A stretch of 43,740 nucleotides of DNA, taken from NCBI GenBank assembly GCA_947461445.1, contig CANHKV010000009.1, forward strand, positions 1-43,740. The letters run 5' to 3'. Both the position numbers and the translations under genes were made by a program. This DNA comes from Holosporales bacterium. GTDB taxonomy: Bacteria > Pseudomonadota > Alphaproteobacteria > Holosporales > Holosporaceae. The notes below the pieces were generated by a model. The model had not been told where the DNA came from and ran no database searches. It saw nothing but the letters and a program-made list of their open reading frames with translations. Below are positions 5,008 to 37,484 of this stretch, piece after piece. Numbering within the stretch: position 1 is the first letter of the stretch; each line of letters opens with the position of its first letter.

Positions 5008-6726
5008 TCAGCGCAGCTCTTCTTTTGGCGTAATGCCTAACATGGTTAAGCCAGACGCCATCACAAAGGCTGTGGCTTGAACACAGGCCATGGATGCATA
5101 GGTTTTATCCAAATCATCAGCTTGCACCAATTTCATGGTGGGGTTTTGATTCCCCTTTTGCCATAACGCATGAAAGGCACCGGCCAATTTTTGCAAATAA
5201 TTTGTAATGCGGTGCGGTTCACGATGCAAGGCCGATTCCGACACCTGTCGGGGCCAATCCATTAACAGGGACACCAACGGATCATGTAAAAACCCAGAAA
5301 AATCAGCCAACGCCATGGATTCTGCCCTCTGTTTTTCCTCTGAGAACAATGGTTTGGCCGCGCGTAAAACCGAACAACACCGGGCATGGGCATACTGGAC
5401 ATAAAACACGGGGTTCGAACTGCTTTGTTCTTGCATTTTTGCAATATCCAGGTCCAGATGGGTATCGGCTTTTTTGGTCAAAATCATAAAACGCAAAACA
5501 TCTTTGCCCACCTGATTCAACACATCGCTCAACAAGACAAAATTTCCCGATCGTTTAGACATTTTCAACACTTCACCATTGTGAAAAAAATGCACCATTT
5601 GGAACAACAAAACCTCTACGTTTTTTTCAGCCATGGCCGCTACGGCACCAGACATGCGCTGCACATGACTGGCATGATCAGCCCCCCACACATCAATCAT
5701 ATGGTCGCATCGCCCCGCTTTGTCCCAATGATAAGCAATATCATTGGCAAAATACGTCCATGCCCCATCAGAACGCTGTAATGCCCGATCTTGATCATCG
5801 CCAAATCGGCTGGATCGGAACAACATCAAGGGCGTGGGCATCCAATCCGGATCCTCTCGGCCAACGGGTTGAGGCAAAACCCCCTTATAGATCAAATCCT
5901 TATGGTTCAATGCATCCATGGTTTTTTGCAATATCCCAGACGATTGCAATGATTTTTCCGACGTAAACACATCATGATGAATGCCCAAATCATGTAATAC
6001 GGAACGAATATCCTGCATCATCTGATCCACCGCAAAGGATGCCACATCCTGCATGGATTGGGTTTTCCAATTTTGCGGATGTTGGCGTAAAAAGGATTCC
6101 GCGATTTCTTGACCATAGGCACCGGGGTATAACCCCTCTGGAATCACCGCCGTTTCGTTGTTTTCCAACGCAGCGCAATGACACAGCACGGTTTCGGCCA
6201 AACGGATGACCTGCTGGCCCGCATCATTGATGTAATACTCACGAACCACACGGTATCCAACGGCCTGTAATAGGTTGGCGACCACATCACCCAAAACCGC
6301 ACCCCTGGCGTGTGCCGCATGCAAAGGCCCTGTGGGATTGGTCGAAACATACTCCACATTCACCACTTGGTTCTGACCCCAGCCTTGGTGTCCATACCGA
6401 ATGCCTGTGGTTAAAATGTGCGCCAATTCTTGCTGAAAAACACAGGGCTTTAATCGAATATTAACGTATCCACCTAGGGGTTCTGCAGATTCAATCAGCG
6501 GGTTTTGTAAAACCACAGCACACAATTCTTTGGCAATGGTCATGGGAGGTTTTTTCCATAATTTGGCCAGAGAAAAGGCCACAGGCGAAGCAAAATGCCC
6601 ATGATCTTCACGATCTGGCGGCACAAAACCCCAATTAAAATCGTCAGGTAAAATGCCCTGTAAAGCGGCCTGAACCCTGTGGGCTATGCCCCGATTATTA
6701 TCCAAATCTGCAAGAACACTGACCAT
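5008..6726 (-). CDS. argS: arginyl-tRNA synthetase
   Basis: Class I aminoacyl-tRNA synthetase charging tRNA-Arg. STNPTGPLHAAHARG contains the HIGH-type site (HAAHARG at about residues 126-132) and KMSKRSG gives the KMSKS loop near 378. The C-terminal third is the helical anticodon-binding (DALR) domain. I chose ATG 6726, giving 572 residues and a normal-length N-terminal domain. The frame also extends to a TTG at 6768 (586 residues) and neither start has a clear Shine-Dalgarno site. The gene is convergent with murC and divergent from the secretion operon. Confidence 0.95.
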   Translation of the reverse strand: MVSVLADLDNNRGIAHRVQAALQGILPDDFNWGFVPPDREDHGHFASPVAFSLAKLWKKPPMTIAKELCAVVLQNPLIESAEPLGGYVNIRLKPCVFQQELAHILTTGIRYGHQGWGQNQVVNVEYVSTNPTGPLHAAHARGAVLGDVVANLLQAVGYRVVREYYINDAGQQVIRLAETVLCHCAALENNETAVIPEGLYPGAYGQEIAESFLRQHPQNWKTQSMQDVASFAVDQMMQDIRSVLHDLGIHHDVFTSEKSLQSSGILQKTMDALNHKDLIYKGVLPQPVGREDPDWMPTPLMLFRSSRFGDDQDRALQRSDGAWTYFANDIAYHWDKAGRCDHMIDVWGADHASHVQRMSGAVAAMAEKNVEVLLFQMVHFFHNGEVLKMSKRSGNFVLLSDVLNQVGKDVLRFMILTKKADTHLDLDIAKMQEQSSSNPVFYVQYAHARCCSVLRAAKPLFSEEKQRAESMALADFSGFLHDPLVSLLMDWPRQVSESALHREPHRITNYLQKLAGAFHALWQKGNQNPTMKLVQADDLDKTYASMACVQATAFVMASGLTMLGITPKEELR

Positions 6727-7031: not shown

Positions 7032-8666
7032 ATGAGCATTCCTGGAAATCCCACTGTTGATCATTTAATTCGGGATGGATCCATTTCTGTTGATGATGCT
7101 TCGGTTTTATGGACAGAGCATAAAATATCAGGAAAATCCATCGAAACCTTGATCCTAGATGCAGGCATCATGGACGAAGATGCGTTGTTGGATTTATCGG
7201 CTCGACTGCGCCAATGCCAAACGGCTGATCCTGCTGAACATATGGATGCCATTAGACGCTTGCACCCCATGATTCCATCAGAAATTTGGGAACAATGCCA
7301 CAGTGTGCCCATTGATTATGATGAGACCATTTCCACATTGCGGGTTGCCATGGCTGATGTCAGCGATATTCAGGCCCAAGATTTATTGATGCATCATTTG
7401 CCAGCGGCCACCATTCTGTCCCCCGTATTATCCAAAAAATCAGCCATTATCACCATTCTCCAGGGGATGCATGCCCCATCCCATCCCATGGATGTCACAC
7501 AATGCGCTGTGGGTGATAAAATCATCAATCGATTTTTGCACCAAATCATTGTCAAAGCCGTTGAAGAAAGGGCTTCTGATATCCATTTTCAACCTGAAAA
7601 GTTTAAAATTAGGGTGCGTTATCGCAAAGATGGATTATTGCACACGATACAGACCTTTCACACGTCGTTTTGGCATCCCCTATGCAACCAGTTAAAAATA
7701 TTGGCAGCCATGGATATTTCGGAAACCAGACGACCTCAAGACGGTCGATTTTCCCTTCTCATATCTGGAAGAACTATAGATTTTCGAGTATCAGCCCACC
7801 CCACGGTATATGGCGAAAACCTGGTTTTGCGTATTTTAGATCAACAGCATTCTTTGATTGCACTGGAAAAACTGGGATACAGCCCCCACAACATGAAACA
7901 GATTCACCGAATTCTAGAAAAACCAGAAGGTTTGATTATCCTAACAGGACCCACAGGATCAGGTAAAACCACCTCGTTATACAGCATGTTGGCCACGCTG
8001 GATCACGAACAAATCAATATTATGACGCTGGAAGAACCCATCGAATATCACGTTCCCAACATCAGACAGAGTGAAGTCAAGGAAAAAAGCCAATTTGATT
8101 TTATGTCGGGCATGCATTCCCTGTTGCGTCAAGATCCTGATGTCATCTTAATTGGTGAAATTCGGGATGAAAAAACAGCCGATATGGCCATTCGTGCGGG
8201 CATGACAGGACACAGGGTTTTTACGACACTGCACACCGTCCATGCCCTGGGGACCATTTACCGATTAATCGAATTACAGGTTCCCATTTCCTTGTTGGCA
8301 GGGGTACTCAATGGGGTTGTGGCGCAACGTTTGATTCGATTGTTGTGTTCTGCTTGTAAAACGCCCACGCGCCTAGAGGTTGAACAGGCCAAAGATTACC
8401 GTGTGTGGCCACAGGTTGACGTATTCAGCGCCAACGGATGTGAGCATTGTGGATTTTCTGGATATTATGGGCGAAAAGCCATTGCCGAAGTCATGGTGAT
8501 GGATGCAGATATCGAGGCATTGATTTTGGATCGTGCATCGCACCAAGAATTGCAACGTGCGGTAAAAGACAAAGGGTTTCGTTCGATGCACCATGATGCC
8601 ACAGAGGCCGTTATTCGAGGTGAGACATCTTTGAGCGAAATTCGTCGTGTGATGGGATCCTTATAA
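7032..8666 (+). CDS. gspE: type II secretion/type IV pilus assembly ATPase, GspE/PilB family
   Basis: A cytoplasmic hexameric ATPase that powers pseudopilus or pilus extension. The protein has 544 residues. An N-terminal GspE/PilB-type domain (about 1-140) precedes the ATPase core: SDIHFQP entry, Walker A GPTGSGKT at 306-313, the DPDVILIGEIRD Walker B segment and the TGHRVFTTLHT His box. Two CxxC pairs near the C-terminus (CSAC and CEHC) form the zinc knuckle of GspE/PilB. It heads an operon with GspF-, GspL/PilN-, PilO- and PilP-like genes. GspE versus PilB cannot be decided from sequence alone; the GspL-like third gene leans toward GspE. Confidence 0.9.
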   Translation: MSIPGNPTVDHLIRDGSISVDDASVLWTEHKISGKSIETLILDAGIMDEDALLDLSARLRQCQTADPAEHMDAIRRLHPMIPSEIWEQCHSVPIDYDETISTLRVAMADVSDIQAQDLLMHHLPAATILSPVLSKKSAIITILQGMHAPSHPMDVTQCAVGDKIINRFLHQIIVKAVEERASDIHFQPEKFKIRVRYRKDGLLHTIQTFHTSFWHPLCNQLKILAAMDISETRRPQDGRFSLLISGRTIDFRVSAHPTVYGENLVLRILDQQHSLIALEKLGYSPHNMKQIHRILEKPEGLIILTGPTGSGKTTSLYSMLATLDHEQINIMTLEEPIEYHVPNIRQSEVKEKSQFDFMSGMHSLLRQDPDVILIGEIRDEKTADMAIRAGMTGHRVFTTLHTVHALGTIYRLIELQVPISLLAGVLNGVVAQRLIRLLCSACKTPTRLEVEQAKDYRVWPQVDVFSANGCEHCGFSGYYGRKAIAEVMVMDADIEALILDRASHQELQRAVKDKGFRSMHHDATEAVIRGETSLSEIRRVMGSL

Positions 8667-25484: not shown

Positions 25485-26810
25485 TTATTCAACAACCATC
25501 ATGGCGGATAAATGGTCCATAAAACGCTGTGTGCATTCTGGAATATCACGATCAAAATAGAGGGTTGATACCAACGATTGGCCTATAATATGACTACCCT
25601 CCACTTGGTTTTTCATAAAAGGAGAAGAATATCTTGAGTGCGCGATTAACACTTTACCTTTGTAGGTGCCCACATAGAGAACGACATGACCTGGATGATA
25701 CAATATGGTTCGATATGGGATGCCATTTTTTATAATAAAGCGCTCTTTTTCATCGTTGCGTTTTCCGGATAGATCCAGTACTTTTTTTCCACTCTCTATT
25801 TGAGCCTTTGAATTTCTAGGCAATGCATATCCAAAAATACGGAAATAATCTTGGGTCATGCTGGAACAATCTCGATTTTCCAGAGTACCGCCCCATCCAT
25901 AGGGTTTTCCAAGCAATGTGTCCATCGTGCGGGCAATGTTTTGATTGGTCCATGCCAATGGTTTTGTACTGATGATGGTTTTAGAAACACAAAGGGTTTC
26001 CCACCGAACATAACCAGAAGTATGACGTTGAGGCCATAAAACCCACACATTGTGGTCGTCTTCTTTTTTGACAAAAATAATTTGACCCAGGCGACTATAT
26101 CCGGCAAATTGTCCTGATGAATAATAGAGTGGAGCCTTATCTTGACAAAAAACAGCAATAGGAAGGTCTTTGACAGCATTGATTTGGGGTGGTGTCAACA
26201 GGGCAACTTCATGAATTTTCACAAACCCAACTGCTTTGGATGCCACATCTTCGATCATAACCCAGGCACGATCTTTGGAATAATGACTGATGTATACTGG
26301 GGTACCTGCAGCAATATATACATTTTGCAAACGATCCAAGAAAAAATCATACCCTGGTTTTTTGATATAACATGGATAGTTGGTGGGCAGTTTACGGATA
26401 AGCGCATGGGATACCATCACGCCTTTGGCACTCACACCATCAACATTGGTCCTATTCGTATTATTTTTGACCTCTTTAATCCATAATTGATCTGTACAAG
26501 GACGAAAATTTTCTCGATAACAGGAATCTAAAATGCTCAAGGAATCAGAAATGCTCTCGCTCCAATTAAATTGACGATTACTCCAAGACAACAGCCAGGA
26601 CTGCTTTAACCCTTCGAAAGAGGATCTTTGAGGCATACGGGAAGGCACAGGACATTGCTTAATCAGTATCGATCCTGTTTGAGGACAATCGCCCTCATCT
26701 GCTATGGGATCGAAATCAGACCAACGGCCAAATTCCGGTTTGGATTCCCCACGACATTCACCCAAAAAGATCGTGCAAAACATCCAAAACAATACTCTTA
26801 TTTTTTTCAT
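25485..26810 (-). CDS. SH3-domain and NlpC/P60 peptidoglycan hydrolase
   Basis: The 441-residue exported protein starts with a hydrophobic signal (4-16) followed by a Cys at 19 (LGEC, an imperfect lipobox). Residues ~160-275 look like two SH3-type wall-binding domains (SH3b1 and SH3b2), with AAGTPVYIS and SGYVRWETL. The catalytic domain begins GKPYGWGGT; the Cys is 315 in RDCSS, the His 375 in PGHVVLYVG and a further His near 391. It probably cleaves the stem peptide of peptidoglycan. It lies 51 bases after the photolyase gene, both minus-strand. Confidence 0.88.
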   Translation of the reverse strand: MKKIRVLFWMFCTIFLGECRGESKPEFGRWSDFDPIADEGDCPQTGSILIKQCPVPSRMPQRSSFEGLKQSWLLSWSNRQFNWSESISDSLSILDSCYRENFRPCTDQLWIKEVKNNTNRTNVDGVSAKGVMVSHALIRKLPTNYPCYIKKPGYDFFLDRLQNVYIAAGTPVYISHYSKDRAWVMIEDVASKAVGFVKIHEVALLTPPQINAVKDLPIAVFCQDKAPLYYSSGQFAGYSRLGQIIFVKKEDDHNVWVLWPQRHTSGYVRWETLCVSKTIISTKPLAWTNQNIARTMDTLLGKPYGWGGTLENRDCSSMTQDYFRIFGYALPRNSKAQIESGKKVLDLSGKRNDEKERFIIKNGIPYRTILYHPGHVVLYVGTYKGKVLIAHSRYSSPFMKNQVEGSHIIGQSLVSTLYFDRDIPECTQRFMDHLSAMMVVE

Positions 26811-26861: not shown

Positions 26862-28256
26862 CTAATCGGTCAATTCTTTATATGCTTGCAGCGCTGCCTG
26901 TCGTGTTTCATCCAAATCAACGATTGGGGCGGGGTAATGCCCACCAAATAAACCCGAACCGTGAGAACTGGCACGAATTTTTTCTGGATCATGGATTACA
27001 CGTGCTGGAACATCCGCCAATTCAGGCACCCAACGCTTGACATATGTACCATCTGGGTCAAATTTTTGACCTTGTAAAATGGGGTTAAAAATACGGAAAT
27101 ACGGCGCGGCATCGGCTCCACACCCGGCCACCCACTGCCACCCTGCACTGTTATTGGCCTCATCGGCATCCAATAACGTATCCATAAACCAAGCCGCCCC
27201 AACCCGCCAATCGGTCATCAAATTTTTAGTTAAAAACGACGAGACAATCAATCGAGCCCGATTGTTCATGGTGCCCGTGTGCCACAATTGTCGCATGCCT
27301 GCATCAATGATGGGAAACCCAGTTTGACCTTTTTTCCAAGCCGTTAACGTCGTTTCATCTGTTTTCCATGGAAAATTCATCTTCTCTTTAAAATTCTGAT
27401 CAGGCAAATGGGGAAAATGGTGCAACAAATAATAAGAAAACTCTCGCCATCCCAATTGAGAAATAAAAACCCGCACACCCTCTGGATCCGCTCCTGTTTG
27501 CTGTCCAACACGTCGATAAATCTGCCACAGACTGAGTTCACCAAAATGAATGTGGGGAGATAGGGATGATACCCCTTCTTTACCCAAATCATTGCGTCTT
27601 ATGGCATAGTGGGATAAGCCACCCTCTGCAAAATGTTCCAGCTTTTTGACGGCACCCGTAACCCCAGGTTGCCAATGCTGATCAAATTCTTTGGCCCAAT
27701 TAGGGTGTTGCGGCAACAAGGACCAATCATCCAAATCATCAGAAACAAGAGGCACCATGCGATCTTTTGCAGAAATAATCATGGGGTCTGGTATAACCAT
27801 ATTCTGTAAACAATGGCGCCAAAAAGGTGTAAATACTTTTGCAATCGACCCCGTACTGGTGCGAATCTGGTCTGGATTGCACAACAAATGCCCATTGAAC
27901 TGTTGATTTTTTACGCCCATATGGTCCAGTTGTTTTGCCACTGCAGCGTAAACACCTTTTCCCTGAACCGTTATGGCATGATTCCAATACACCGCATCCA
28001 GCCCATGGGTTTTAACCAAATTCATCACAATGTCTTGAACCTTTCCACGGTACAGCCCTAAAATCATTCCTTTTTCAGATAGTTGCTGTTGCAAAGCCCG
28101 CAGGCTGTGATGTACCCACCATTTTTGTGCACTGCCCATACCAGGGTCATAGACGTAAATAGGGATAACAAAATCGTGATTTTGACACGCTTGATACAGG
28201 GCCGGATGATCATCGATACGCAAATCATTTTGAAAACACACCAACGCCGTGGACAT
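26862..28256 (-). CDS. phrB: deoxyribodipyrimidine photolyase, CPD class I type
   Basis: Light-driven repair of pyrimidine dimers. The 464-residue protein opens with ALVCFQNDLRIDDHPALYQAC, like the antenna-binding domain of class I photolyases. The FAD domain has LSPHIHFGELS, QLGWREFSYYLL, GMRQLWHTGTMNNRARLIVSSFL and the ANNSAGWQWVAG segment, all expected for the catalytic core. It stands before the NlpC/P60 gene on the minus strand, divergent from the SIMPL genes. A light-dependent enzyme implies that the cell or its host meets light. Confidence 0.95.
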   Translation of the reverse strand: MSTALVCFQNDLRIDDHPALYQACQNHDFVIPIYVYDPGMGSAQKWWVHHSLRALQQQLSEKGMILGLYRGKVQDIVMNLVKTHGLDAVYWNHAITVQGKGVYAAVAKQLDHMGVKNQQFNGHLLCNPDQIRTSTGSIAKVFTPFWRHCLQNMVIPDPMIISAKDRMVPLVSDDLDDWSLLPQHPNWAKEFDQHWQPGVTGAVKKLEHFAEGGLSHYAIRRNDLGKEGVSSLSPHIHFGELSLWQIYRRVGQQTGADPEGVRVFISQLGWREFSYYLLHHFPHLPDQNFKEKMNFPWKTDETTLTAWKKGQTGFPIIDAGMRQLWHTGTMNNRARLIVSSFLTKNLMTDWRVGAAWFMDTLLDADEANNSAGWQWVAGCGADAAPYFRIFNPILQGQKFDPDGTYVKRWVPELADVPARVIHDPEKIRASSHGSGLFGGHYPAPIVDLDETRQAALQAYKELTD

Positions 28257-28449
28257 ATATATGATTCTTCTTCATTTTTGTGCTCACAGTATAACGCATC
28301 CATACACGCGCGTCTTGCTTGGGGCGACCCATTTCCGTACTCAAAACCCCGTTGAAAGATTATTTTAAAAAATAAAACTTTTTTTTATTTCTTTTCAGTC
28401 AATTAAAACTTTTGTTAACATTTTTTGAATTAGTATTAAAATATTATTA

Positions 28450-28477
28450 TTGACTTTGTTTTTTATTGGGCTAATAT
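28450..28477 (+). promoter_or_regulatory. promoter-like element before the first SIMPL gene
   Basis: TTGACT at 28450-28455, a 16-base spacer and TAATAT at 28472-28477, 32 bases before the first lipoprotein gene, in a strongly AT-rich stretch. Copies 2 and 3 lack an equally clear element. Confidence 0.5.
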
Positions 28478-28509
28478 GATGAAGTAACCTCTTAAAAAAG
28501 AATTAAATA

Positions 28510-29367
28510 ATGACTACAAGATTCAGAAAAAATATATTTGCTTTTACGTTTCTGCTGAGTGCATGTGGTTTAACCACGATGAGCAGCAAGGCTTGTGGCG
28601 ATTATTATGATGGGCACTCGAATACTGGCCTGAACATCACAGGGCGTGCCGAAAGAACGGTTAAATCTGATCGTGCCGTATTACGATTAACCATTTCCGT
28701 TAGTGGTGATTGTTACAAAGAACTGCTTCAAAAACTGGACAAGCAAATCAAGGAATTAAAGCAATTCTGGATCAAAATGGGCGTAAAGTCAGACATGATC
28801 CATGAGGACAATCGTACAGATATCAGAATTTCAGATTTGGAATATGGTTCAGATAAAAAACAAAACAAATACTCTATTCAATGCACGATTGTTGTAACCA
28901 TGGATGATCTGGATATGGCCTCTGATGTACAGAAAAAAACCAACACTTTGGTGGAAAAAGGTTTTGTGTTTTCTCAACAAAATTTGGATTATTTTTATAC
29001 TAAGGCTGCTGAATTGCAAAAAGAATTAACCAAAGAGGCCTTAAAGGACGGTGAAAAAACAGCCACAGAAAATGCACACATATTGGGTCTAAGCATCGAA
29101 AAAGTACCAACCAATATTAGTACATCAAATTTGGGTTGCGCTTCGACTTATTCAAACCCATCACCCTATGCAAGAGGATGGGGCGGTGGCAGCACAAACA
29201 TAGAGAACAAGTTTACCGTATTGGTTGATATGAATTATGCATTCAAAAAGGATGATCAAAAAGGAGAAAAAGCACAGGAGTCATCAGAAGATGATGGCGC
29301 AGAAACCCAGGATTCATCAGAAGATGATGGCGCAGAAAGCAATGGGCAAGATGATGCGCAAGGATAA
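28510..29367 (+). CDS. SIMPL-domain predicted lipoprotein, copy 1
   Basis: The 285-residue protein has a short basic N-terminus, a hydrophobic stretch and LSAC, a good lipobox, predicting lipidation of Cys19. Residues ~35-235 match the SIMPL/DUF541 (YggE/BP26) pattern: GLNITGRAERTVKSDRAVLRL, then a helix with FWIKMGVKSD, then LTKEALKDGEKTATENAHILGL. The tail (~255-285) is acidic and Ser-rich, with a duplicated SSEDDGAE unit, ending NGQDDAQG. The residue after Cys19 is not Asp, so outer-membrane sorting by LolCDE is expected. Function of the family is unclear. It is the first of three tandem copies and the most diverged. Confidence 0.8.
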   Translation: MTTRFRKNIFAFTFLLSACGLTTMSSKACGDYYDGHSNTGLNITGRAERTVKSDRAVLRLTISVSGDCYKELLQKLDKQIKELKQFWIKMGVKSDMIHEDNRTDIRISDLEYGSDKKQNKYSIQCTIVVTMDDLDMASDVQKKTNTLVEKGFVFSQQNLDYFYTKAAELQKELTKEALKDGEKTATENAHILGLSIEKVPTNISTSNLGCASTYSNPSPYARGWGGGSTNIENKFTVLVDMNYAFKKDDQKGEKAQESSEDDGAETQDSSEDDGAESNGQDDAQG

Positions 29368-29399
29368 ATAAGCCCCCTTGAAGGGGTTGCTGCCTCCAG

Positions 29400-29425
29400 A
29401 ACCCCAGGTAAATCCTGGGGTTTTT
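29400..29425 (+). terminator. intrinsic terminator after SIMPL copy 1
   Basis: Stem AACCCCAGG, loop TAAAT, stem CCTGGGGTT, then a T run. A second small hairpin, CCCC TTGAA GGGG, lies just upstream at about 29374-29386. Confidence 0.85.
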
Positions 29426-29586
29426 CTGATTCCCCATTCCAGACCCAAGGTTTTTTGATAAAAACCCCCATCACAGAAAAAATGATTTATTTATTTTTCT
29501 TTTCAACAGTTTAATACTTGTTTTAACATTTTTTCAACCAACATGGTTCAATATAAAGGAACAACACATTAATACAAAAATAGTTA

Positions 29587-30429
29587 ATGAATACAAAATT
29601 TAGAAAAAATATATTTGCTTTTACCTTTCTGCTGGGTGCATGTGGTTTAACCACGATGAGCAGTAAAGTTTGTGGGCATTACTATTACGATTACCATCAG
29701 GATCAACACGTCCCTGGATTGAATGTAACAGGGTATGCAGAGAGAATTGTTAGATCTGATTATGCGGTATTGGAATTAACCCTTTCTGTCAGTGGTGATG
29801 ATTGCCAAGAAATTCTTGAAAAACTGAATCATCAGGTAAAGGAATTAAAGAAATTCTGGATCAAAATGGGGATAAAATCAGATATGATCGATGTGGATAA
29901 TCGACCCGATATCGAAATTTCAGAAACCAAACAAAATGAGCACTCTATTCAATACACGATTGTTCTAACAATGGATGACCTGGATATGGCCCCTGTTGTA
30001 CAAATCAAAACCAATCATTTGGTAAAAAAAGGATTTGTCTTTTCTGCACAAAGTCTGAAATTTTTTTACTCAAAGGGTTTTGAATTGCAAAAAGAATTAA
30101 CCAAAGAGGCCTTGAAGGACGGTGAAAAAACAGCCAGGAAAAATGCAGACGTATTGGGTTTACGCATTAAAAAAATACCAAACAATATTGAAGGATCAAA
30201 GCTGATCTGCGCATCGACTTATGAAAATCCATTTCCGTTTCCCTTTGAAAAAATTTCGGAGGGCTGTTGTTCGTGGGGCGGCGGCAATGCAGATATAGAG
30301 AATAAGTTTAGCGTACTGGTCAATATGAGGTATGCATTCAAAAAGGATGATCAAAAAATAGAAAAAGTGCAGGATTCATCAGAAAATGATGGCGCAGAAA
30401 CCGATGGGCAAGATGATGCGCAAGGATAA
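29587..30429 (+). CDS. SIMPL-domain predicted lipoprotein, copy 2
   Basis: The 280-residue paralogue has the same signal region, with lipobox LGAC placing the Cys at 19. The SIMPL core begins GLNVTGYAERIVRSDYAVLEL and includes FWIKMGIKSD and the shared FVFSAQSLKFFYSKGFELQ stretch. Between ~205 and 245 is a loop rich in Phe, Cys and Gly that differs from both other copies. The tail ends with the same GQDDAQG. It lacks the tail duplication of copy 1. It is closest to copy 3 in the middle of the gene. Confidence 0.8.
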   Translation: MNTKFRKNIFAFTFLLGACGLTTMSSKVCGHYYYDYHQDQHVPGLNVTGYAERIVRSDYAVLELTLSVSGDDCQEILEKLNHQVKELKKFWIKMGIKSDMIDVDNRPDIEISETKQNEHSIQYTIVLTMDDLDMAPVVQIKTNHLVKKGFVFSAQSLKFFYSKGFELQKELTKEALKDGEKTARKNADVLGLRIKKIPNNIEGSKLICASTYENPFPFPFEKISEGCCSWGGGNADIENKFSVLVNMRYAFKKDDQKIEKVQDSSENDGAETDGQDDAQG

Positions 30430-30465
30430 ATAAGACCCCCCCTTGAAGGGGTTGCTGCCTCCAGA

Positions 30466-30490
30466 ACCCCAGGTAAATCCTGGGTTTTTT
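30466..30490 (+). terminator. intrinsic terminator after SIMPL copy 2
   Basis: The same hairpin as after copy 1, with one G lost from the right stem: CCCAGG, loop TAAAT, CCTGGG, then six T. Confidence 0.8.
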
Positions 30491-30652
30491 CTGATTCCCT
30501 ATTCCCGGCCCAAGGTTTTTTGATACAAAACCCCCATCACAGAAAAAATGATTTATTTATTTTTCTTTTCAACAGTTTAATACTTGTTTTAACATTTTTT
30601 CCATTAAAATGGTTCAATATAACGGAACAGCATATTAATACAAAAATAGACA

Positions 30653-31459
30653 ATGAATACAAAATTTAGAAAAAATATATTTGCTTTTACCTTTCTGCTG
30701 AGTGCATGTGGTTTAACCGCGATGAGCAGCAAAGTTTATGGCCTTTATCATGATGGCCCGAAAGCTGGCCTGAACATCTCAGGGCGTGCAGAGAGAATTG
30801 TTAGATCTGATTATGCGGTATTGGAATTAACCCTTTCTGTCAGTGGTGATGATTGCGAAGAACTTTTTAAAAAACTGAACAATCAATTAAAGGAATTAAA
30901 GCAATTCTGGATTCAAATGGGCGTAAAGTCACATATGATCCATGTGGATAATCGATCCCATATCAAAATTTCAGATGCCAAACAAAACAATTGCTCTATG
31001 CAATACATCATTGTTCTAACCATGAATGATCTGGACATGGCCCCTGTTGTACAAAATAAAACCAACATTTTTATGAAAAAAGGATTTGTCTTTTCTGCAC
31101 AAAGTCTGAAATTTTTTTACTCAAAGGGTTTTGAATTGCAAAAAGAATTAACCAAAGAGGCCTTAAAGGATGGTGAAAAAACAGCCAGGGAAAATGCAGC
31201 CGTATTGGGTCTACGCATTGAAAAAACACCCTTTTATATTGCAAACACGTCTCTGAGCACTGCACAGACCCATGATCATCCATTTCCATTTCAAAGAAGT
31301 TGGGAGGGCTATGGCAGCACAGATATAGAAAACAAATTTTCAGTAGAGGTCCATATGAGCTATGCAATCAAAAAGGATGATCAAAAAAGAGCAAAAGCAC
31401 AGGAATCATCACAAGAAGATGGCGCAGAAAGCAATGGGCAAGATGATGCGCAAGGATAA
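30653..31459 (+). CDS. SIMPL-domain predicted lipoprotein, copy 3
   Basis: The 268-residue paralogue has lipobox LSAC at 16-19 and the core opening GLNISGRAERIVRSDYAVLEL. Its residues ~135-185 are almost identical to copy 2. The loop near 195-225 (HDHPFPFQRSW) is distinct, and the acidic tail is the shortest. As with the other copies, the DUF541 role is unknown; BP26-type relatives are surface or periplasmic oligomers. Copies differ most in the segments likely to be exposed loops. Confidence 0.8.
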   Translation: MNTKFRKNIFAFTFLLSACGLTAMSSKVYGLYHDGPKAGLNISGRAERIVRSDYAVLELTLSVSGDDCEELFKKLNNQLKELKQFWIQMGVKSHMIHVDNRSHIKISDAKQNNCSMQYIIVLTMNDLDMAPVVQNKTNIFMKKGFVFSAQSLKFFYSKGFELQKELTKEALKDGEKTARENAAVLGLRIEKTPFYIANTSLSTAQTHDHPFPFQRSWEGYGSTDIENKFSVEVHMSYAIKKDDQKRAKAQESSQEDGAESNGQDDAQG

Positions 31460-31491
31460 ATAATCCCCCTTGAAGGGGTTACTGCCTCCAG

Positions 31492-31517
31492 AACCCCAGG
31501 TAAATCCTGGGGTTTTT
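31492..31517 (+). terminator. intrinsic terminator after SIMPL copy 3
   Basis: Stem AACCCCAGG, loop TAAAT, stem CCTGGGGTT with a T run, identical to the copy 1 element. It also separates this cluster from the convergent mgtE. Confidence 0.85.
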
Positions 31518-31614
31518 CTGATTCCCTATTCCAGACCCAAGGTTTTTTGATACAAAACCCCCATCACAGCAGGAAAAACTGAGTTAATCCCTATTGCACG
31601 CCAAAGAAAACATC

Positions 31615-32991
31615 TTATCCAATAAATAATTTGGCCAAACCCAAAAATAAAATATACCCGATGACATCGGTTGTTGTGGTTAACAAAGGACCAGCACTGA
31701 GCGCTGGATCATACCCAAAATGAGAAATCATCACAGGCATAATGGTTCCCGCCGCACCAGCCCAAATCATGTTAAACAGTACGGCACCACCCAAAACAAT
31801 GGAAAAGTGATAATCGTTAAACCAAAAATATCCCACCAACGCCAGGACTACTCCAAACACAGCCCCATTTAATAAGGCAACACGCACTTCTTTGAAAAAA
31901 GAGCGCCACATGTTTACACTGGTCAATTCCTTGGTGGCCAATGCACGAATCACAATGGTGGACGCCTGAATCCCTGAATTTCCCCCCATGGCCGCCGCAA
32001 CAGGCATTAATACAGTTAATGCCACCTGGTTTTGCAGGGTTTCTTGAAATTCATTGATCACCAAAGACGTCAACATGGTGTTCAATAATGTAATAACCAG
32101 CCAATGAATTCGTGCGAAACTGGTTTTAATGGCCGATCGATAAAAATCGGACGAGTGAATACGACCCATGTGCAATAAATCTTCTGTGGCTTTGCGTTCG
32201 ATGACATCGATCACGTCATCGGCTGTAATCACACCAATCAATCGACCTGCCCCATCCACAACGGGAGCAGACATCAGGTCATACAAACGAAATGTTAAGG
32301 CCACCTCTTCTTGATTCCATTGGGCAGGAATGCTGCGAAAATCTGTGGCCATGATGTCCAAAACTTGAGATTTTTTAGGGCCACGAATCAATTGTACCAA
32401 GGGCACCACACCCACAGGATGGGCATTGGAATTCACCACAAAGGCTTCGTACAATGTGTGGGGCACATGATCCAGACCCGCCACATAATCCAAACTTTCT
32501 TGTAATGTCCAATCTTGTGAAAATATCACCATTTCTTGCTGCATCAATCGCCCAGCACTGGATTCTGGATACGCCAAACCGTCTACAAAACGTTTTCTCT
32601 GTGTTTCTGACATGGCCGATAGAACCACAGCTTTTTGGGAACTTTCCAAGGAAGCCAACAGGGATAAGGCATCATCACTTTCTAGCACATTTAAAATGGA
32701 TACCACCTCTGTACCTGATAACAGGGCAATCAGATCGGCGCGTAAATCCTGTTCCAAAAAGAGAACAATTTCAGGATCAAAATCGTGCTTTAGTAATCGA
32801 ATGAATATTTGTCGACTGGGTGCATCCAAATAATGAATCAAATAGGCCACTTCACTTGGTGGTACACCCTTGACCATGGCTTGTAAAACGCCATGGTCTC
32901 CTGGTGTCGCCAAAATCTTTTTTAACAGAGGCACCTTGTCTTGTAAAAAATGGTGCGGCCGTTCTCCTACGGGAAAATCACGCTTTATCAC
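31615..32991 (-). CDS. mgtE: magnesium transporter MgtE
   Basis: Mg2+ channel/transporter of the inner membrane. I chose GTG 32991: AGGAGG lies seven bases upstream, and the GTG overlaps the maeB stop as GTGA. An ATG at 33024 lacks this. The 458-residue protein has an N-terminal helical MgtE_N domain, paired CBS domains (about 125-245; APVVDGAGRLIGVITADDVID) and a membrane domain with five helices. PVAAAMGGNSGIQAST and GPLLTTTTDVIGY match the pore-forming MgtE region. Coupling to maeB suggests joint expression. Confidence 0.93.
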   Translation of the reverse strand: MIKRDFPVGERPHHFLQDKVPLLKKILATPGDHGVLQAMVKGVPPSEVAYLIHYLDAPSRQIFIRLLKHDFDPEIVLFLEQDLRADLIALLSGTEVVSILNVLESDDALSLLASLESSQKAVVLSAMSETQRKRFVDGLAYPESSAGRLMQQEMVIFSQDWTLQESLDYVAGLDHVPHTLYEAFVVNSNAHPVGVVPLVQLIRGPKKSQVLDIMATDFRSIPAQWNQEEVALTFRLYDLMSAPVVDGAGRLIGVITADDVIDVIERKATEDLLHMGRIHSSDFYRSAIKTSFARIHWLVITLLNTMLTSLVINEFQETLQNQVALTVLMPVAAAMGGNSGIQASTIVIRALATKELTSVNMWRSFFKEVRVALLNGAVFGVVLALVGYFWFNDYHFSIVLGGAVLFNMIWAGAAGTIMPVMISHFGYDPALSAGPLLTTTTDVIGYILFLGLAKLFIG

Positions 32992-35162
32992 ACAGAAACC
33001 TCCTGCATCAGCAAGGTCCAGCACGATAATTCTGTGGCATAACGCACATCATCATCCTCTGTTAACACTGAATTCGTTTGCACGGATAAAGGAACAGGAC
33101 CAAACCACGGTTCACCCAGACCGGCAGCAGGTGCGCCAATATGCCAAACGGCATCCAGAGTATTTTGTACAGCCAACCCACCAAAATGAGGAGTAGACCC
33201 CGTAAAGGAATAAACGTCTGCTCCTGCACCAGAATCCCTTGAGCCCATTGATCCAGCCCCATTGCTGTGACCATGATGTTCAGAAAAATCCAAAAGCAAG
33301 CGACAACCGCAGGTTTCCAGCATGGTTTTCACCTGATGTGTGGGGGCAGATTGGGAATATAAATGCAATTTTTCACCATACTGCCATCCGCTGACGTGAT
33401 GGTCGTGACCATACTGTGTTCTTTTGTCTCCAGTTTGCGAGAGCACTCGAATAACCCCAGAAGAATCCTGGGGCTGTTTGCCCAGCACCTGGGAAAATGC
33501 CCCCTGTTGGGCATCGGATAGAGAATAAACAGAAATCTTTGACAACACAGAATCATCTTTTAGCTGATGGGTTATGATGTCATAATCCCCAATAAAATAG
33601 AGTTCAGCCAAACCACAGTGCTGGATCAAACGTGCCGCAGCACAAACGGCATGGGGAACACGACCACCGTCTGTTTCAATGACATATCCCAAACGTGGTG
33701 CGGGTCCCTGGGATGGCATCGAACGGGCCAACAGCGTTTTAAACATCAAAAAGTCCTTGTACGCCCGGCCAATTAAACATGCACGATAATGATCTAAATC
33801 AAAAAAGGGCACTTGCCCTGTCTCCACAGCTGCCCTTGCCACCGCCAATGGCAACTGAACAGACAACCGGTGATCAAAGGGTTTTGGTAAAAAATAGTGT
33901 GGACCAAAATCCTGAATTTGCCCACCATAGGCACCCGTTAAGTCCACAAACCCTTCTTTGGCCAACGTCGACAATGCGCGCACGCATGCTTTTTTCATAT
34001 CCAATGTAATAGAGCGTGCCCCCGAATCCATGGCGCCCCTAAAAATATAGGGAAAACACAGCACATTATTCACCTGGTTGGGTAAATCTGAACGCCCCGT
34101 ACCCACATAGGCATCCGGTCTAACCCTTAAAACATCACTGGGCCAAATTTCTGGAATGGGATTGGCCAGAGCAAAAATAATGGGACAGGGTGCCATGCCG
34201 GCAATCATGCTGGGCGTCACACTGTTTGGGCCAGATAAACCTAAGAAAATATCTGCCCCAGTCAACGCCTCGCCGAGCGATCGATGATGGGTATCCCGGG
34301 CATAGGAACGCTTGTACGACGATAAATCATCTCTTTTTTCATGAATAACCCCCTTGGTATCACAAATCATCAAATTGGACGCAGACAAACCCAATTCCAA
34401 CAACAACTGGGCACAAGCCAGGGCCCCCGCCCCAGCCCCTGCAATAACGCATCGGCTGGTTTCTATGGTTTTTCCCACCAATTCCAATGCATTTAAAATG
34501 GCGGCGGATACGGTGATGGCTGTTCCGTGTTGATCATCATGAAAAACGGGAATATCCAATCGTTTCATTAACTCTGATTCAATATAAAAACATTCTGGCG
34601 CCTTGATGTCTTCTAGATTAATGGCACCAAAGGATGGGGCCAAACGCACAATGGTATCAATCAACTGGTCTGGATTTTGCTCGTCAATTTCTAAATCAAT
34701 GGCATTAAGGCCAGAAAAAAACTGGAACAGAACGGCCTTTCCCTCCATGACGGGTTTGGATGCCAGCGCCCCAATGTTCCCCAAACCCAAAACGGCTGTA
34801 CCATTAGAAATTACGGCAACCAAATGTTGACGCATGGTGTACAAAGAAGCCATTTTAGGATCATTCTCGATGACTTTGCAGGCTTCTGCCACACCAGGAG
34901 AGTACGCCAAAGATAAATCCGACCCCCCTGACAACTTTTTACTGGGAACGGTGGAAAATTTGCCTGGAACAGGAAAGGCATGATACGCCAATGCCGGACT
35001 CAGCACGGGTTGACCACCATCGAATTCTTTGCGTACGGTATTGTTTACCAATGAATCCGGTGTTTCACCAGAAAAATGGCTGTAACCAGCCCCCCCCATA
35101 GAACACGAATGATCTGCTGTATGACCAAGCACTTTTGTCTGATCCGAAGTCTGAATGGCCAT
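32988..35162 (-). CDS. maeB: NADP-dependent malic enzyme, MaeB type
   Basis: Oxidative decarboxylation of malate to pyruvate with NADPH formation. The 724-residue protein has an N-terminal malic domain with SLAYSPGVAEACK, GNGTAVLGLGNIGA-like sequence and FHDDQHGTAI. The NAD-binding domain has VIAGAGAGALACAQLLL. A C-terminal phosphotransacetylase-like domain (~420-724) follows, as in MaeB, where it is regulatory. That domain is somewhat short and has a low-complexity Gly/Ser/His insertion near residue 640. It is upstream of mgtE and downstream of lolD. With mdh in this window it supports malate-based carbon flow. Confidence 0.93.
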   Translation of the reverse strand: MAIQTSDQTKVLGHTADHSCSMGGAGYSHFSGETPDSLVNNTVRKEFDGGQPVLSPALAYHAFPVPGKFSTVPSKKLSGGSDLSLAYSPGVAEACKVIENDPKMASLYTMRQHLVAVISNGTAVLGLGNIGALASKPVMEGKAVLFQFFSGLNAIDLEIDEQNPDQLIDTIVRLAPSFGAINLEDIKAPECFYIESELMKRLDIPVFHDDQHGTAITVSAAILNALELVGKTIETSRCVIAGAGAGALACAQLLLELGLSASNLMICDTKGVIHEKRDDLSSYKRSYARDTHHRSLGEALTGADIFLGLSGPNSVTPSMIAGMAPCPIIFALANPIPEIWPSDVLRVRPDAYVGTGRSDLPNQVNNVLCFPYIFRGAMDSGARSITLDMKKACVRALSTLAKEGFVDLTGAYGGQIQDFGPHYFLPKPFDHRLSVQLPLAVARAAVETGQVPFFDLDHYRACLIGRAYKDFLMFKTLLARSMPSQGPAPRLGYVIETDGGRVPHAVCAAARLIQHCGLAELYFIGDYDIITHQLKDDSVLSKISVYSLSDAQQGAFSQVLGKQPQDSSGVIRVLSQTGDKRTQYGHDHHVSGWQYGEKLHLYSQSAPTHQVKTMLETCGCRLLLDFSEHHGHSNGAGSMGSRDSGAGADVYSFTGSTPHFGGLAVQNTLDAVWHIGAPAAGLGEPWFGPVPLSVQTNSVLTEDDDVRYATELSCWTLLMQEVSV

Positions 35163-35308: not shown

Positions 35309-36043
35309 TCAGTTGGCCGTGGATAGGCCCACAGGATGGGGGTGCAATCCCCCACCATATAAATGCAAAACACGATCAAACTGGGCACTTAAGACAGCAT
35401 TGTGTGTGGCCATAACCACACTGAGACCGCGCTGTTGTCCCAACATTAAAAATAAATCGAAAATTTCTTGCGCCGTGACCTCATCCAAGTTGCCTGTGGG
35501 CTCATCGGCCAACAAAATATCTGGATCATTGGACAAGGCCCGGGCAATGGCTACACGTTGTTTTTGCCCACCGGACAGCTGGCTGGGAAAAGATTTCTCC
35601 TGTTCTCCAATGCCCACCAAATGCAACAAGTCTCTGGCTTTGCTCTTGGATCCGGCCGCCGATCGTCCTGCTATCAATTGAGGCAACATCACATTTTCCA
35701 ACACGGTAAATTCACCCAACAGATGGTGAAACTGGTACACAAAACCAATAAATTCTCCTCGTAATGCCGTGCGCTGGCCCTCTTTTAATCGCCCCGTCCA
35801 AATCATTTGATTGCCATCGCGCAAACCCACATCCCCCGAAACGGGCATATCCAACAGGCCCAACAGCTGTAAAAAGGTAGATTTTCCCACCCCAGAAACC
35901 CCCATCAACGCCACGCGCTCTTGACGAAGCAACTGAAAAGACACGCCTGACAATACGTCTCGACTCGTCCCAGGATATCGGTACGATACCCCAGATGCCT
36001 CTAGGACCACTTTTTCACAGTGTACGCTCTGTCCACTATTCAT
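35309..36043 (-). CDS. lolD: lipoprotein-releasing ABC transporter ATPase LolD
   Basis: ATPase of the LolCDE complex that releases lipoproteins from the inner membrane for transport to the outer membrane. The 244-residue protein has Walker A GVSGVGKST at 48-56, QFHHLL at the Q loop, LSGGQKQRVAIARAL as the signature and LLADEPTGNLD as Walker B. The short FHHLLGEFTVLENV stretch is typical of the LolD/MacB group. Its start overlaps lolC by 8 bases. Confidence 0.93.
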   Translation of the reverse strand: MNSGQSVHCEKVVLEASGVSYRYPGTSRDVLSGVSFQLLRQERVALMGVSGVGKSTFLQLLGLLDMPVSGDVGLRDGNQMIWTGRLKEGQRTALRGEFIGFVYQFHHLLGEFTVLENVMLPQLIAGRSAAGSKSKARDLLHLVGIGEQEKSFPSQLSGGQKQRVAIARALSNDPDILLADEPTGNLDEVTAQEIFDLFLMLGQQRGLSVVMATHNAVLSAQFDRVLHLYGGGLHPHPVGLSTAN

Positions 36044-37292
36044 ACCGCAATCCCTCCACTGGTTTTAATCGCGACGCCTTCCATGCCGGATATAACGTGG
36101 CCAAAAAACTGCACAACAACGACATAACAACCACCAGAATGACTTCTTTGGCATCAATGCGCACGGGCAATGTGGATAAAAAGTAAATTTCTGCCCGAAA
36201 CAAGTCCACACCTGACAAGGCTTCTAGTCCTCTGCGAATGCCATCAATATTACTCGAAAATAACAGCCCCAGTGCGCCCCCAAACAACGTACCAAACCCA
36301 CCGATGCACAGGCCGATATAGCAAAAAATACGCATGATTCCCCCCTGGGATACCCCCAGTGTGCGCAAAATGGCAATGTCTCTGGTTTTGTCTTTGACCA
36401 ACATCACCAAGCACGAAACGATGTTAAATGCTGCGACAACAACGATCAGCGTTAAAATCAAAAACATCACGTTGCTTTGCACTTGAATGGCCTTGAAAAA
36501 GTGCGAATTGGTTTCTCGCCAATCGTGAATATTGACCCCACCCAATGCCAAAATGGCATCCTTGATTTGGGCAATGTGTTCTGGGTTGTTTAAAAAGACT
36601 TCGTGATCGCGAATCGTTTCCACATCAAATAAATCTTTACCCTCTGCCAATGTCATCACTAAAAATGCGCTGTCGTATTCGTGCATGCCACTGTCGAACA
36701 GAGCCGCAACCTTACAGTTTTGAGTCCGAGGCACTGTTCCAAAAGCGGTGGGCTCGCCCTCTGCCCCCATCACAGAAACAATGCCGCCCGGATGGACCCC
36801 CAAGGTGCGCGCCAATTTGTATCCCATAACCACTTGCCCGCCATCACCGCCATGATCATCCTGTAAAAATGGGCTCAACGAACCCTGGACAATATTTTCA
36901 GAAATCAGCTTTTTTTCCATTAAATCGCCCGGATTTACGCACCGAACAATGGCCCCGGACACCCCATGCTCTGTACGACAAATGGCCTGCTTGTCCAAAA
37001 CAGGGTTCGCACTTCTAACCCCTGGGATCTTCCTGATTGCCTCCAGATCCACCGCTCGATTATTCAATGCCATTACGGTTAAATGACTGTTAAAACCCAA
37101 AATACGATTCATCAGCTCGTAACGAAATCCATTCATAACCGACATGACCACAATCAGCGTGGCCACCCCTAGGGCAATGCCCAGAAAAGAAAAGGTCGAA
37201 ATGACGGAAACAAAACCATCTTTTTTACGGGATCGAAGATAACGCCATGCGATAAAACGCTCAAAATATTGAATAATTTCCCCCTTTTGCAT
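36036..37292 (-). CDS. lolC: lipoprotein-releasing system membrane protein LolC/LolE
   Basis: Membrane partner of LolD. I chose ATG 37292, giving 418 residues with the family opening FERFIAWRYLRSRKKDGFVSVIS. The first helix (~25-50) ends VMSVMNGFRYEL. A large periplasmic domain follows, then three C-terminal helices (FtsX-like), for example VVVAAFNIVSCLVMLV and DIAILRTLG. The frame stays open further upstream, but those codons lie in tRNA-Ala. Only one LolC/E-type gene is seen, as in bacteria with a single LolCE-like (LolF) subunit. It overlaps lolD by 8 bases. Confidence 0.92.
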   Translation of the reverse strand: MQKGEIIQYFERFIAWRYLRSRKKDGFVSVISTFSFLGIALGVATLIVVMSVMNGFRYELMNRILGFNSHLTVMALNNRAVDLEAIRKIPGVRSANPVLDKQAICRTEHGVSGAIVRCVNPGDLMEKKLISENIVQGSLSPFLQDDHGGDGGQVVMGYKLARTLGVHPGGIVSVMGAEGEPTAFGTVPRTQNCKVAALFDSGMHEYDSAFLVMTLAEGKDLFDVETIRDHEVFLNNPEHIAQIKDAILALGGVNIHDWRETNSHFFKAIQVQSNVMFLILTLIVVVAAFNIVSCLVMLVKDKTRDIAILRTLGVSQGGIMRIFCYIGLCIGGFGTLFGGALGLLFSSNIDGIRRGLEALSGVDLFRAEIYFLSTLPVRIDAKEVILVVVMSLLCSFLATLYPAWKASRLKPVEGLRYE

Positions 37293-37315
37293 CACCTGGT
37301 GATACGATTTTGATC

Positions 37316-37391
37316 TGGTGGAGCTGAGGGGAATCGAACCCCTGGCCTTGTCATTGCGAACGACACGCTCTGCCAACTGAGCTACAGCCCC
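37316..37391 (-). tRNA. tRNA-Ala (anticodon CGC)
   Basis: On the minus strand: acceptor GGGGCTG pairs with CAGCTCC (one G-U). D arm is GCTCAGTTGGCAGAGC. The anticodon stem TGTCG/TGACA has loop TTCGCAA, so the anticodon is CGC. T arm AGGGGTTCGATTCCCCT; ACCA is encoded. It lies between lipB and lolC on the same strand, only 23 bases before the lolC start. Confidence 0.95.
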
Positions 37392-37484
37392 GATCAAACA
37401 AGTATTTTTAATACACATTTTATTGTACTAAAAAAAGGCATAAATGCAACCCCAATGCCCGACAATCCCCCTGAATGATCCCTA

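Follow-up and report, generated by a model that had tools for sequence, protein, structure and literature searches.

The three tandem SIMPL-domain genes described here probably represent a genus-level expansion of a fast-evolving, gene-converted gene for an exported BP26/YggE-like protein, an expansion that serves dosage or mild specialization and not antigenic variation. In the scenario that we favor, one exported SIMPL-domain (DUF541) gene would have been triplicated in tandem in a reduced-genome, Finniella-like alphaproteobacterium, with each copy forming a transcription unit of its own. Homologous gene conversion or unequal exchange passes sequence between the copies, such that within a genome the leaders and signal peptides, portions of the core, and the tails and terminators become homogenized, and the loop preceding the last β-strand remains copy-specific. 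Their products would be directed to the periplasm, those of some copies possibly being lipidated, would assemble into rings of the BP26/YggE kind, and would provide either dosage or mildly specialized subunits under relaxed constraint. In kind, the array is ordinary: a real but modest instance of tandem SIMPL genes under gene conversion.

Organization of the array

The window, that is, the whole stretch of DNA analyzed, comprises 43,740 nucleotides and corresponds to one entire contig (C9, CANHKV010000009.1) of a Holosporales genome (G000, GCA_947461445.1), which is 97.8% complete and amounts to 835 kb in 18 contigs. The source bacterium is small and related to endosymbionts of protists, and its genome is that of a probably host-dependent organism. 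The array spans 28510-31459 and is flanked by a photolyase gene (26862-28256) and by mgtE (31615-33024), both on the minus strand. All three reading frames are intact, and the repeat unit, of ~1.07 and ~1.05 kb, consists of leader, coding sequence, 3' hairpins and a post-terminator block (Table 1). Repeats, folding and GC content confirm the reading of an earlier note on this DNA, according to which each unit has its own coding region, hairpin terminator and AT-rich leader; the duplication that the note had seen in the acidic tail of copy 1 is likewise recovered as a short tandem repeat. Adjoining the photolyase gene, a further minus-strand gene (25485-26810) encodes an NlpC/P60 plus SH3 protein that has a short hydrophobic stretch at its N terminus and an LGEC that might be lipobox-like.

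Table 1. Coordinates of the SIMPL array and its putative control elements in the window
Feature	Position	Strand	Remarks
Copy-1 leader, two sigma-70-like matches	28415..28477	+	Supported by conservation, not by score
SIMPL copy 1	28510..29367	+	285 aa; loop type A; acidic tail with internal 33-nt duplication
Copy-1 tail repeat	29275..29338	+	33-nt unit, x1.9
Copy-1 double hairpin, terminator-like	29373..29422	+	29373-29386; 29400-29422
Copy-2 leader	29440..29586	+	AT-rich; ~90% identity to copy-3 leader
SIMPL copy 2	29587..30429	+	280 aa; loop type B, orthologous in the loop to Finniella copy 3
Copy-2 double hairpin, terminator-like	30437..30487	+	Second hairpin passes terminator scan
Copy-3 leader	30505..30652	+	AT-rich
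SIMPL copy 3	30653..31459	+	268 aa; loop type C, orthologous in the loop to Finniella copy 2
Copy-3 double hairpin, terminator-like	31465..31514	+	

Family and fold

Scoring 62.6, 50.4 and 40.1 bits against PF04402, copies 1 to 3 all exceed the curated Pfam cut-off of 25.2 bits that served as the threshold of membership, which bears out the earlier assignment of three tandem SIMPL genes. For this family the scores are low, the best alphaproteobacterial members among the matches listed reaching up to ~216 bits. The AlphaFold model of copy 1, with a core pLDDT mostly above 90, has two structure matches with E<0.001, namely C. jejuni SIMPL (7c50, E 3e-12) and Brucella BP26 (4hvz, Foldseek E 8e-8, probability 1.00, ~16% identity). 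What the window genes have in common with the SIMPL/DUF541 family is thus the passing of its cut-off by all three and the fold of its solved members; what sets them apart is their tandem triplication, their long acidic tails and a longer loop before the last strand. Brucella BP26/Omp28 (PDB 4HVZ), an exported protein of an intracellular alphaproteobacterium, has the same fold, the window proteins being known here from their sequence and a monomer model. Escherichia coli YggE is a weaker relation: its equivalog PRK11087 (oxidative stress defence), for which the NCBIfam cut-off is 249 bits, yielded 18.4 bits for copy 1, 13.4 bits for copy 2 and no match for copy 3, so that by this test the window genes are not YggE orthologs. 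We know of no settled function for SIMPL proteins. The appearance of 'DUF541' in a paper on Rickettsia effectors was dismissed as a prefix match to DUF5410.

Leaders and 3' hairpins

The leaders have a GC content of 16-28%, compared with 37-39% in the coding sequences. At the 3' end of every copy there are two hairpins, the first being CCCC-TTGAA-GGGG and the second AACCCCAGG-TAAAT-CCTGGGGTT, followed by T's; their energies lie 2.1-3.1 standard deviations below those of dinucleotide shuffles (z of -3.1, -2.1 and -2.9). From these hairpins and leaders, we infer that the three copies are independent transcription units. No Rfam RNA elements were found around the array, and a sigma-70 promoter scan returned no more matches than shuffled sequence did. 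The two promoter-like matches in the leader of copy 1, TTAACA-16-TAAAAT and TTGACT-16-TAATAT, are both kept at equivalent positions in the orthologous leader of the Finniella relative described below. A segment of ~31 nt that holds the second -35 (28440-28480) belongs to the leader of copy 1 in either species, whereas copies 2 and 3 have leaders without it. Judging from the conservation of these matches with Finniella copy 1, copy 1 may be the main expressed gene.

Distribution among relatives

The search for further copies that the earlier note had proposed uncovered no SIMPL gene beyond these three in the 835-kb genome at the level of protein, Pfam and DNA. A single-copy state in all relatives is rejected within the genus. 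The sole named relative recovered, the metagenome-assembled genome (MAG) Candidatus Finniella inopinata ME-21oct19-116 (G002), possesses a syntenic array of three SIMPL genes (L025), likewise between photolyase and mgtE genes, and a congener (G001) has at least two copies: an intact one beside mgtE, at the edge of its contig, and a second one, inside the 3' end of which the contig starts and which has the same hairpin block. The species name of the MAG calls for caution, since its genome is ~0.8 Mb in size whereas 1.8 Mbp were described for F. inopinata (PMC11909080).

Could strain variants in a metagenome have been joined into a false array or a false mosaic? Repeats of 1 kb are prone to such errors, and the contig of the congener does break at the array; yet the syntenic three-copy array of the second species was assembled separately and has species-specific sequence at every copy, making an assembly artefact a very improbable explanation.

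Outside the genus, no SIMPL gene was detected in G003 and G004, which represent sister genera of the same family. In a further genus of this family, g4, each genome carries between one and three SIMPL genes, and in two of its genomes, G005 and G006, two and three such genes are adjacent beside a trmB-like gene (G005:C69:4936-6211 and G006:C90:11785-14002; L029, L028). These arrays differ from that of the window in their locus, in the strong divergence of their copies and in having no acidic tail; they are probably an independent expansion, which suggests that SIMPL genes have expanded repeatedly within the family. Among the genomes compared, the window-type array is known in this genus only. 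Tandem SIMPL genes as the ancestral state of the family were considered and rejected as unsupported, given that SIMPL was not detected in G003 and G004 and that the g4 arrays occupy another locus. In a class-wide sample, SIMPL was found in 133 of 337 genomes, and among the matches listed at least four genomes have adjacent SIMPL genes (G000, G002, G125 and G206). In the last of these, two SIMPL matches fall into one open frame of 551 aa (G206:C1:1547-2923), an apparent SIMPL-SIMPL fusion.

Mosaic structure and gene conversion

Copies 2 and 3 had been described in the earlier note as a mosaic of near-identical and diverged blocks, suggestive of recombination or gene conversion. The identity profile and permutations show this mosaic to be real: the stretches 29439-29681 and 30505-30747 are 90% identical, and in a sliding comparison the identity is 87-97% over leader and signal region, falls to 80-84% in the middle, reaches 98% around columns 700-800 (close to residues 155-185) and drops to 63-71% at the loop. 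Uniform divergence, the pattern that the note had held against its own reading, is rejected by the permutation tests. The longest run of polymorphic sites shared by copies 2 and 3 exceeds that in every within-window permutation (p=0.0005), runs and deviation tests yield p<=0.006 in window-only comparisons, and for most triplets the runs and maximum-deviation tests reach the permutation floor of p ~5e-5. These tests assume that polymorphic sites are exchangeable, which selection can violate; the conclusion of gene conversion rests on synonymous sites and on the pattern between species, a comparison of two related arrays of which one is truncated, as well as on the p-values.

The pattern between species is one that conservation alone could not produce. 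In its loop, Finniella copy 2 is 87-90% identical to its ortholog in this segment, window copy 3. Over alignment columns 450-650, its identity is 94-97% with copy 1 of its own genome but 76-85% with window copy 3, and in tail and terminator the value for that copy 1 rises to 99-100%; for these copy-1-type segments, the permutation p is <=0.0001. Synonymous sites point the same way: over residues 67-102, the pS of Finniella copy 2 is 0.05 against Finniella copy 1, as opposed to 0.33 against window copy 3. Terminators and tails are homogenized within each genome. Window copy 1 has a tail of the copy-2/3 type, whereas Finniella copy 1 and the congener have another tail in common, indicating that the copy-2/3-type tail moved into copy 1 of the window. 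Exchange has thus proceeded in both directions: in Finniella, copy 2 received core and tail sequence from copy 1, and in the lineage of the window copy 1 was the recipient.

Finniella copies 2 (L025:6103-6893) and 3 (L025:7230-8119) both have a frameshifting insert between the signal peptide and the SIMPL domain. The insert belongs to a near-identical block of ~150 nt with one frameshift and 45 shared polymorphic sites (L025, about 6203-6345 and 7345-7487). The shared frameshift uncouples the domain from the signal peptide in both copies, and the tail of copy 2 is moreover preceded by an in-frame TAG; copy 1 alone is intact in this MAG. The frameshift appears to have spread by conversion or unequal exchange. 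It may instead be an indel error repeated in assembly, which would leave the shared insert and the TAG unexplained. Permutation tests, the between-species pattern and the shared frameshift block together support the original suspicion of gene conversion.

Loop identity and evolutionary rates

The most diverged segment, at residues ~198-231, agrees with the region of ~200-240 that had been noted to differ in each copy. In the model of copy 1, residues ~197-231 form a loop of lower confidence that connects the last long helix to the last long strand. Between the species, the loops pair in swapped order: the type-B loop of window copy 2 has its ortholog in Finniella copy 3, and the type-C loop of window copy 3 has its ortholog in Finniella copy 2. 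In these two loop types, pN between orthologs is 0.062 and 0.086, in both cases below pS, compared with 0.30-0.41 between paralogs within one genome; conservation between the species is weaker in loop A of copy 1 (pN 0.24 and pS 0.38 over 32 codons). As the B and C loops are kept from one species to the other and differ between paralogs, the loop appears, at least in this pair of species, to be a paralog label rather than hypervariable. The earlier suggestion that an array with such loops could generate surface variation is therefore unsupported, and the loop also falls at a position that is poorly conserved in the wider SIMPL alignment.

The same observations bear on the notion of an antigenic-variation locus, with copy 1 as the site of surface expression, into which segments of two donor cassettes, copies 2 and 3, would be converted. 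Segmental conversion, promoter-like matches conserved at copy 1 only, the broken copies 2 and 3 of Finniella and the copy-2/3-type tail gained by window copy 1 would all fit such a locus. However, the clearest conversions in Finniella run the opposite way, from copy 1 to copy 2, and the loops are not the moving part, with types B and C the same in both species. There are three copies and no extra cassettes in the genome, and copies 2 and 3 of the window are intact, with starts, leaders and terminators of their own. We therefore regard antigenic variation as quite improbable.

Between orthologs, the SIMPL genes have a pN/pS of ~0.5 (pN 0.075-0.139, pS 0.143-0.273), compared with 0.17 for the photolyase gene and 0.11 for mgtE at similar pS; by this estimate, they evolve 3-4 times faster than their neighbors. 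The rates can mean mild positive selection instead of relaxation, the segments used being too short to decide on the mode of selection. Should the raised ratio be read together with the pseudogenized copies of the Finniella MAG and with the sister genera in which SIMPL was not found, gene dosage alone might account for the array, the copies being redundant genes for a periplasmic protein that drift toward loss while their loops diverge neutrally. The conservation of loops B and C between species, with pN below pS, is hard to reconcile with pure neutrality, and we hold this account to be conceivable, if unlikely.

Export and location

The earlier note had stated that all copies keep a lipobox. 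This holds within the window, where a PROSITE-like lipobox at C19 is found in copies 1 to 3 (LSAC, LGAC and LSAC), but not for Finniella copy 1 (LGAF, with F at the position of C19) or the copy of the congener (LLLC), so that the lipidated cysteine is not conserved among orthologs. A signal-peptidase-I-like A/V-x-G site ending at residue 30, on the other hand, is present in every copy. Export to the periplasm would thus be the feature shared by the copies, and the periplasm is at least as likely a destination as the outer membrane. For the window copies, lipidation is possible, considering their good lipoboxes, the presence of Lgt and LspA in the genome, both over cut-off, and LolCDE-like genes in the window (35309-37418; an ABC ATPase plus an FtsX/MacB_PCD permease). 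The designation as outer-membrane lipoproteins, compatible with this machinery, is doubtful in view of the copy-1 orthologs.

A step further, the earlier note had proposed a hetero-oligomeric coat or ring of three different outer-membrane lipoprotein subunits. Besides the lipoboxes and the lipoprotein enzymes, such an assembly could draw on the loop identity that is maintained per copy and on the architecture of the homolog BP26, a hexadecameric (16-mer) barrel with chain ends lining its rims (PMC6884894). The copy-1 orthologs of both relatives do without the lipobox, though, and the location of BP26 is itself disputed, with reports of the outer membrane and of the periplasm (PMC6884894). With two of three copies broken in the Finniella MAG, an obligatory three-subunit coat is disfavored, and we consider the proposal improbable. 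Equally speculative, and somewhat less probable still, is a SIMPL ring of mixed subunits that would sit in the envelope of protist endosymbionts and in which conversion would keep the core interchangeable and selection would keep three distinct loops, one for each subunit, that face different partners.

Significance and comparison with known systems

Seen as a tandem expansion under gene conversion, the array is a compact case of concerted evolution in a small genome: conversion homogenizes the paralogs and also spreads a null mutation, and one segment resists homogenization. Naturally diverged sets of SIMPL paralogs of this kind could help to map which parts of the protein matter. The array also cautions against taking 'variable loops plus lipobox', as seen in one genome, for a surface-variation system. 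With Anaplasma msp2/p44, Ehrlichia omp-1/p28 and Neisseria pilE/pilS (PMC4534519), it has in common recombination or conversion among related genes. In contrast to these systems, the window array comprises few copies, and its loops are stable between species.
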